Positions 32,643 through 33,632 of a DNA stretch of 64,000 bases are shown piece after piece (position 1 is the stretch's first letter; every line of letters starts with the position of its first letter). The notes beneath the pieces were generated by a model that was not told where the DNA came from, searched no databases, and saw only the letters and a list, made by a program, of their open reading frames with translations. The DNA is from Ktedonobacteraceae bacterium. Lineage in GTDB: Bacteria > Chloroflexota > Ktedonobacteria > Ktedonobacterales > Ktedonobacteraceae. The translations under genes and the position numbers were made by a program. The stretch lies in assembly GCA_035653615.1 (NCBI GenBank), contig DASRBN010000038.1, positions 1 to 64,000 on the forward strand, written 5' to 3'.

Positions 32643-32930
32643 TCAGGCATCAACAATTGTCCATTCTATGCGCTTCCCTAGACTGGCCGCATAGCGCTGT
32701 AACGTCGATAGTCGTGGATCAACGACCCCGGCCTCTAATCGTGCAATGGCCGGTTGCGAGGTTTTGATGCGTTTTGCCAGGGCGCTTTGTGAAATTCGAG
32801 AGCGACTCCGGACATTAGCCAGCGCATTCAATAAAGCTCGCCTCTGGCGTGCTTCTTCCATTAATGCGGGGAATTCAGGATTTCGCTTAGTTGATTCGTC
32901 GATCATTTCGTCAAGGAAATCTTTTTCCAT
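32643..32930 (-). CDS. higA: HigA-type antitoxin (XRE family)
   Basis: 95 residues from ATG 32930 (MEKDFLDEM), which has AAGGAGAAG upstream; the frame could extend to 32951. The HTH is SRISQSALAKRIKTSQPAIARLEAG. The long N-terminal helix and the position downstream of a RelE/HigB-like toxin fit the HigA antitoxin: it would bind the toxin and the shared promoter. Unlike normal higBA pairs, where the genes nearly touch, 200 bp holding CRISPR-like repeats separate them here. With its toxin frameshifted, HigA may be an orphan. Confidence 0.8.
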   Translation of the reverse strand: MEKDFLDEMIDESTKRNPEFPALMEEARQRRALLNALANVRSRSRISQSALAKRIKTSQPAIARLEAGVVDPRLSTLQRYAASLGKRIEWTIVDA

Positions 32931-32949: not shown

Positions 32950-33128
32950 ATAAGAATCTCGAACGGGCTTGCCAGATCATTCAGCTACAAGCCAACATAA
33001 GCCCGAGCCTATCGCATGGAGTTTCAATCCCCAACGGGCTTCCCAGACATTTTAGCTTGTTTTTAATAAGTGGAGAAGCTTCATTGTTGAGGTGTTTCAA
33101 TCCCCAACGGGCCTCCCAGACATTTTAG
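32950..33128 (-). CRISPR. CRISPR-like mini-array: three repeats, two spacers
   Basis: Two 35-bp repeats, 33021-33055 and 33094-33128, differ at one base; each begins GTTTCAATCCCCAACGGG on +. A third, degenerate copy lies at 32950-32984. Spacers are 38 nt (33056-33093) and 36 nt (32985-33020) and are unrelated. Read on the minus strand each repeat ends GGGGATTGAAAC, the classic 3' end giving the ATTGAAAC crRNA tag, and the degenerate copy is then the last, as expected for the leader-distal end. No cas gene is in the window. It lies between the higB stop (33130) and higA. Confidence 0.7.
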
Positions 33129-33129
33129 T

Positions 33130-33515
33130 CTAATGCTCCTGGCTAGCTCGTTTTGCTTCCCCGCGCCTTCGCCAATCTGCTAATCTTTGTTCTGCTAATT
33201 TAATATGGTTCCTGGGTGTTTGCTGCGTTTTTTTCTGAAATCCTTCCAAAGAAAGGAGTATGTGTTGATAGCGCCCTTCACAAGCAAAAAGGATACGATA
33301 AGCTTTCGTGTTGTAGGTAGCACGTACTTCATAGATATCCTTATGCAAATGGCGGGCTACTGCTTTACCGTACTTGCGTACATGCTCCATTTCTTCAAGG
33401 ATGGCAGCACGATCTTCATCGGTAGGGCCAGTAAGAAATCTTTTATGGGTCTGGCTCCATTTTCAGTTTGATAGTCGCGCCACTGTCTTTTATGTTCGGA
33501 ATGCTCACTATTCAT
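33130..33515 (-). pseudogene. higB: HigB/RelE-type toxin gene with a frameshift
   Basis: From ATG 33515 (MNSEHSEHKRQWRDYQTENG) one frame encodes ARPIKDFLLALP, then the homology moves to another frame as DEDRAAILEEMEHVRKYG and runs through DIYEVRATYNTKAYRILFAC to a stop at 33130. Restoring one G near 33425 (CCGGAT for CCGAT) joins the two into a normal toxin of about 128 residues. The toxins are ribosome-dependent mRNA endonucleases. As written the gene is broken; a sequencing error is the alternative. Confidence 0.8.
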
Positions 33516-33532
33516 TACATTCCTCTGTTTGA

Positions 33533-33561
33533 AGTATATCAAATATGATATGATTTTTCAA
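33533..33561 (-). promoter_or_regulatory. higBA promoter with palindromic operator
   Basis: Minus strand TTGAAA (33561-33556), 17-bp spacer, TATACT (33538-33533). The inverted repeat ATATCA-AATA-TGATAT (33536-33551) fills the spacer, the likely HigA site. Confidence 0.7.
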
Positions 33562-33574
33562 GCTGGTTGATAAA

Positions 33575-33627
33575 TATAAAAAGAGGTAAGCCAGCAAGTG
33601 TTGTATGCTGGCTTACCTCTTTTTATA
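33575..33627. terminator. Perfect 22-bp bidirectional terminator
   Basis: Arms 33575-33596 and 33606-33627 are fully complementary (TATAAAAAGAGGTAAGCCAG..), loop of 9 nt, with T-runs on both strands. It ends the glycosyltransferase transcript on the minus strand. Confidence 0.9.
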
Positions 33628-33632
33628 TCCTG

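Follow-up and report, generated by a model that had tools for sequence, protein, structure and literature searches.

A probable orphan type I-D mini-CRISPR remnant at the higB-higA junction of a Ktedonobacteraceae bacterium

Between the toxin gene higB and the antitoxin gene higA of a Ktedonobacteraceae bacterium there is a short CRISPR array, made of three repeats and two spacers and lacking a leader. How did it come to lie inside a toxin-antitoxin operon? We regard it as an orphan remnant of type I-D that was inserted at this junction in the present lineage, and put the probability of this reading at about 0.75. The DNA under study, called the window below, is a stretch of 64,000 nucleotides on contig C38 of the host genome (G000; 6,586,252 bases or 6.59 Mb, in 44 contigs).

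Results

Layout of the mini-array

The repeats are named R2 (leader-proximal by orientation), R1 (middle) and the degenerate copy (trailer end). Read along the minus strand, their order with the spacers is R2-S2-R1-S1-degenerate copy, which is also the direction of higB and higA. Counted as 37 nt, the length of the repeat in the other arrays of the genome, R2 occupies 33094-33130 and R1 33021-33057. Their 35-nt cores (33094-33128 and 33021-33055) are identical at 34 of 35 positions. The terminal repeat at 32950-32986 is in register with them, and its core (32950-32984) agrees with R1 at 24 of 35 positions, the other 11 being mismatches. With a 35-nt repeat, spacer S2 (33056-33093) is 38 nt long and S1 (32985-33020) is 36 nt; with the 37-nt repeat of the genome these lengths become 36 and 34 nt. 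An earlier note on this DNA had described two 35-bp repeats with a single mismatch, a third degenerate copy at the leader-distal end, and spacers of 36 and 38 nt, all of which is borne out here.

Is the regularity more than accidental? The start-to-start distances of the three copies are 71 and 73, against 72-78 in the arrays elsewhere in the genome, and the repeats are separated by unrelated spacers, as expected of a CRISPR. Apart from the array, no 35-mer of the window comes closer to R1 than 15 mismatches, compared with 11 in the degenerate copy. The 18-nt tag half of the repeat occurs twice in 64 kb while 0.08 occurrences are expected (up to three mismatches), which excludes a chance repeat. 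The only Rfam match, to CRISPR-DR60, falls on R1 and is sub-threshold. Folding shows that the 3' hairpin is kept together with the tag in both R1 and R2, and that both features are lost in the degenerate copy; the 5' mini-hairpin GAC/GUC of R2 is still foldable. Judged from sequence and folding, R2 and R1 could thus be processed into crRNA, whereas the last copy is unlikely to be.

The repeat belongs to the type I-D family of the same genome

A search of the host genome with the 18-nt tag half (up to two mismatches) returned 245 matches. Reading of these matches revealed large arrays on C4 (64 repeats), C9 (about 72) and C24 (22), an array of 39 repeats at one end of C44 and of 10 at the other, and array fragments on C28 and C11. 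The repeat of these arrays is 37 nt long, for example GTTTCAATCCCCAACGGGCATCCCAAGCCATTTAGCC on C4, and the period quoted above was pooled over C4, C9, C24 and C44. R1 and R2 differ from the repeats of these four main arrays at 5-6 of 37 positions, and the 19-nt tag half of R2 is identical to that of the C4, C9 and C44 arrays. The C24 array adjoins a type I-D operon (cas6d, cas5d, cas7d, cas10d, cas3d, cas4 and cas1). On C44 there is a second, partial I-D locus, with cas1 and cas4 of the same type and a cas6d homologue. Since the tag half is shared with these arrays and the genome has a I-D cas operon, the feature in the window counts as a true CRISPR, of type I-D by family, whose repeat is of the kind that a cas operon of this genome serves. 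The earlier note had called it CRISPR-like and proposed to look for the same repeat beside cas genes; the description can now be upgraded, and the C24 array supplies the match, at the level of the family (5-6 of 37 mismatches).

Several other elements were noticed around these arrays. Several contigs of the genome stop within an array where one and the same element ends (CACTACAGTTGCACTTGCAAAATCCCGGG; partner ...GAAGTGCAACTGTAGTG), namely at C4:1-150, the ends of C9 and C28, one end of C44, and C11 (L026, L028, L074, L075, L093), so a multi-copy mobile element seems to be present in several arrays. In the second I-D locus, the cas1-cas4 pair has as its neighbour a gene for a group II intron reverse transcriptase/maturase (L031:5331-6842, on C44). 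There are also dispersed single elements like ATTTCAATCCCCATCGGGAAGCCGGGAAAAGGTCC, with a CRISPR-tag-like start on the minus strand, on C38 (L082), C1 (L085) and C44 (L031); they lie outside arrays and had no Rfam match above threshold.

No leader, no neighbouring cas genes and a private repeat variant

A leader, TGCTACCCCC-TAGTATAGCATA, is conserved at the four arrays of the genome whose leader end was read (C4, C9, C24 and C44), its first two bases differing at C44 and C24. It was not found beside R2. Local alignments of the C4 and C9 leaders near the mini-array are weak, with 7 and 54 of 200 shuffles, respectively, scoring as well, and neither alignment sits at the repeat junction of the mini-array. 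Because a leader is needed for growth, the mini-array is classed as orphan and leaderless, not as active. The 35-nt repeat variant has no other copy in the host genome (up to three mismatches), and it is absent from 60 relatives and from viral contigs. Searches with eight proteins of the I-D locus gave no match on C38 positions 1-180000. This confirms over that range the earlier remark that no cas genes are near; together with the missing leader, the private repeat variant and the degenerate trailer-end copy, it supports the suggestion of an orphan array or relic. The many scattered single copies that the note had named as a sign to the contrary are not seen for this repeat variant in the genome.

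The mini-array is therefore like the genome's own type I-D arrays (C24, beside its cas genes; C44, C4 and C9) in its tag half (identical at C4, C9 and C44), its 37-nt register, its period and the similar lengths of its spacers. It is unlike them in having three repeats of a private variant and no leader, whereas those arrays, as far as they were read, count 22 to about 72 repeats, with a leader at the array end that was read.

Do similar strays occur elsewhere? The 19-nt tag half (up to one mismatch) is present in 4 of 47 genomes of the order, and two of the other three positive genomes, G005 and G028, both from the same family as the host, have isolated copies. In G005:C849 (L004:1255-1370) there are two copies, 72 apart and one of them degenerate, with no leader seen; at G028:C2:2423755 (L127) there is a single type I-D-like repeat. 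Neither has a recognised toxin-antitoxin gene alongside in the DNA read. These cases indicate that isolated I-D repeats recur in the group independently of toxin-antitoxin loci. They resemble the mini-array in consisting of few repeats outside large arrays, in family as judged by the tag half, in having no neighbouring cas gene noticed in the DNA read and, for G005, in the degenerate copy. They differ from it in lying outside recognised toxin-antitoxin operons and in their 5' repeat halves.

The higBA operon around the array

The gene upstream of the array on the minus strand is higB (33130-33516), a toxin of the Gp49/HigB family in the RelE superfamily (Gp49, 1.1e-13). Downstream of the array is higA (32643-32930), an antitoxin with a Cro/C1-type HTH domain (HTH_3, 2.2e-9), likely starting at 32930 with an AAGGAG site just upstream. 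The order of a Gp49/HigB gene followed by an HTH antitoxin gene is that of toxin-first type II HigBA operons, unlike which the present operon is interrupted by the CRISPR insert and has a frameshifted toxin gene. The first ~30 codons of higB are in a different frame from the rest, the Pfam Gp49 match in 33130-33390 begins only at profile position 27, and alignment with the relative G003 shows a one-base difference around 33441-33465, where the 1-nt frameshift lies. The gene families named in the earlier note thus stand, but higB is not a single open frame. The dN/dS values are 0.15 and 0.18 for the higB segments on either side of the frameshift and 0.07 for higA. With the gene conserved on both sides, the break either arose recently or is an assembly error.

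Ahead of higB lies a promoter-like site (33533-33561, minus strand; TTGAAA-17-TATACT, 10 of 12 positions, a consensus match only), from which higB, the array and higA would all be transcribed. It is the one sequence feature seen that fits the earlier note's conjecture that any crRNA would be made under HigA control. Between higB and a glycosyltransferase gene, at 33586-33632, a strong palindrome flanked by runs of A and T is likely a two-way terminator; it was noticed on reading the sequence and is not among the sites listed by the pattern scan.

The junction in relatives

The closest relative with the operon is G003, whose HigA is 83% identical over 95 residues. There higB and higA adjoin with no array between them. 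Compared with G003, the window has an extra stretch from near the higB stop to just before the ribosome-binding site of higA, about 181-187 nt long; three 37-nt repeats and two spacers make 181 nt. Against the G003 junction, the window thus looks like a clean insertion of this length. Insertion in the lineage of the window is the simplest reading of the comparison, with one good relative behind it; as the intact junction is seen in one near relative only, a loss of the array in the G003 lineage stands as the less likely alternative. The earlier note had held that spacers conserved at the same place in related genomes would speak against its view, and in the one relative compared, G003, the array is absent. 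In G019 most of higB is gone, and elsewhere in the phylum the HigBA junctions that were inspected are short, with no CRISPR repeat. Neither G003 nor G019 has a copy of the 19-nt tag half (up to one mismatch). A side observation is that higB and higA of G003 form one continuous frame of 228 aa (L036:1498-2184), a possible toxin-antitoxin fusion or lost stop codon.

Spacer targets and pairing of the guides

S1 and S2 have no other copy in the host genome (up to three mismatches). Searches for their protospacers gave no seed match in viral contigs (an exact match being sought for S2) and phage matches at chance level, and a control array of the same genome, with about 64 spacers, likewise gave nothing convincing, so the lack of protospacers speaks neither for nor against a target. 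The comparison of the spacers with phage and host sequence, proposed in the earlier note, returned nothing above chance.

Could the guides act on the operon itself? A CreA guide has to pair with its target at spacer positions 1-5 and 7-11, with a PAM alongside (PMC8501985). With a seed of this type, neither guide matches anywhere in the window outside the array itself. In the higBA promoter region at most 6-7 of 10 positions match, and shuffled guides do as well. Against higB, higA and the promoter, the only match is one of 7 nt at the higA start codon, and it does not extend.

Discussion

The preferred scenario is that a leaderless piece of array, with its degenerate trailer-end repeat, arrived at the higB-higA junction. 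Being co-directional with higBA, the array would be included in the higBA transcript. The 3' half of the active repeats survives in R1 and R2, as does the ATTGAAAC tag, so one or two crRNAs might in principle be cut out for the I-D effector by Cas6d encoded on other contigs. The mini-array should gain no new spacers without a leader, and would most likely be decaying as a passive relic with no part in toxin control. Four points speak against the orphan-remnant reading. The intact junction is known from one near relative only; a donor array with this repeat variant was found neither in the host genome nor in the 60 relatives; the near-identity of R1 and R2 need not persist in a long-dead relic; and a precise leaderless insertion of whole repeat units has no obvious mechanism.

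Might the array still be at work? The tag and 3' hairpin of the active repeats are kept in R1 and R2, the genome has a I-D operon, and the array is co-directional with the promoter-like site, so that the I-D effector might load both spacers in trans and give immunity against unknown phages or plasmids. This is unlikely, though worth keeping in mind, in view of the missing leader, the private repeat variant and the degenerate terminal repeat. Growth in place, in which an ectopic repeat at the junction gained two spacers through off-target integration by Cas1-Cas2, would agree with an insert of whole repeat-spacer units without leader or extra flanking DNA, and with the position of the degenerate copy at the old end. 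However, the native junction of G003 has no repeat-like sequence to duplicate, and, as all three copies derive from I-D repeats, one of them or more must have come in already formed; we give this scenario very little credit. An assembly artefact may come to mind because the genome is in 44 pieces, and those with other arrays end at repeated elements. Yet both flanks align with G003 as one operon, and none of the other arrays read has this repeat variant, so the mini-array is not a mis-join to one of them. With chance excluded by the tag-half count (2 against 0.08 expected), an artefact or accidental repeat is scarcely credible.

Two further proposals would give the array a role in toxin control. 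In one, a crRNA-like RNA of the CreA or CrePA kind directs the I-D effector to the promoter of higBA, so that the toxin is repressed. The setting is suggestive, with ectopic, leaderless and partly degenerate repeats by a toxin gene and a type I effector in the genome, and CrePA is a case where protein toxins can be controlled in such a way (PMC12737573). But the pairing that CreA requires is absent from the window outside the array and reaches no more than 6-7 of 10 at the promoter, higB carries a frameshift, and the operon already has HigA as a protein antitoxin; we consider the proposal highly improbable. What the earlier note said of CRISPR identity and of an orphan or relic is thus upheld, and its alternative of a CRISPR-derived antitoxin-like RNA is not. 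In the other proposal, the higB-higA mRNA would be a substrate of Cas6d, whose cuts in R2 and R1 would part the toxin message from the antitoxin message and make the balance of the two proteins dependent on the CRISPR machinery. It is a long shot. If true, a protein toxin-antitoxin operon would be wired to CRISPR through RNA processing and not through guide targeting.

The comparison with known systems follows the same line. CreTA, the type VIII toxin-antitoxin system in which a CreA guide controls the RNA toxin CreT, shares with the mini-array its ectopic repeats, the missing leader and a type I effector in the genome. In the mini-array, unlike CreTA, there is no seed complementarity to the toxin promoter, the toxin is a protein and not an RNA, and R1 and R2 are nearly identical instead of divergent. 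CrePA, a published protein toxin under a crRNA-like RNA (CreP with a KilA-N domain, and a CreA guide; PMC12737573), also places a protein toxin beside crRNA-like repeats. Here, by contrast, the toxin, HigB, has a protein antitoxin of its own, and the window yielded no target site; the likeness to CrePA is one of position only.

What does the mini-array mean for the evolution of such systems? The same paper (PMC12737573) raises the question whether other toxin-antitoxin types are coupled to CRISPR. The higBA mini-array is a candidate for such coupling, to which the sequence evidence gives no support. With the empty site in a relative for comparison, it is a clear case in which a leaderless I-D mini-array has entered a new operon. 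Stray mini-arrays are plausible raw material for regulatory RNAs of the CreA type, and a stray inside a toxin-antitoxin operon shows how the path to such an RNA could start.
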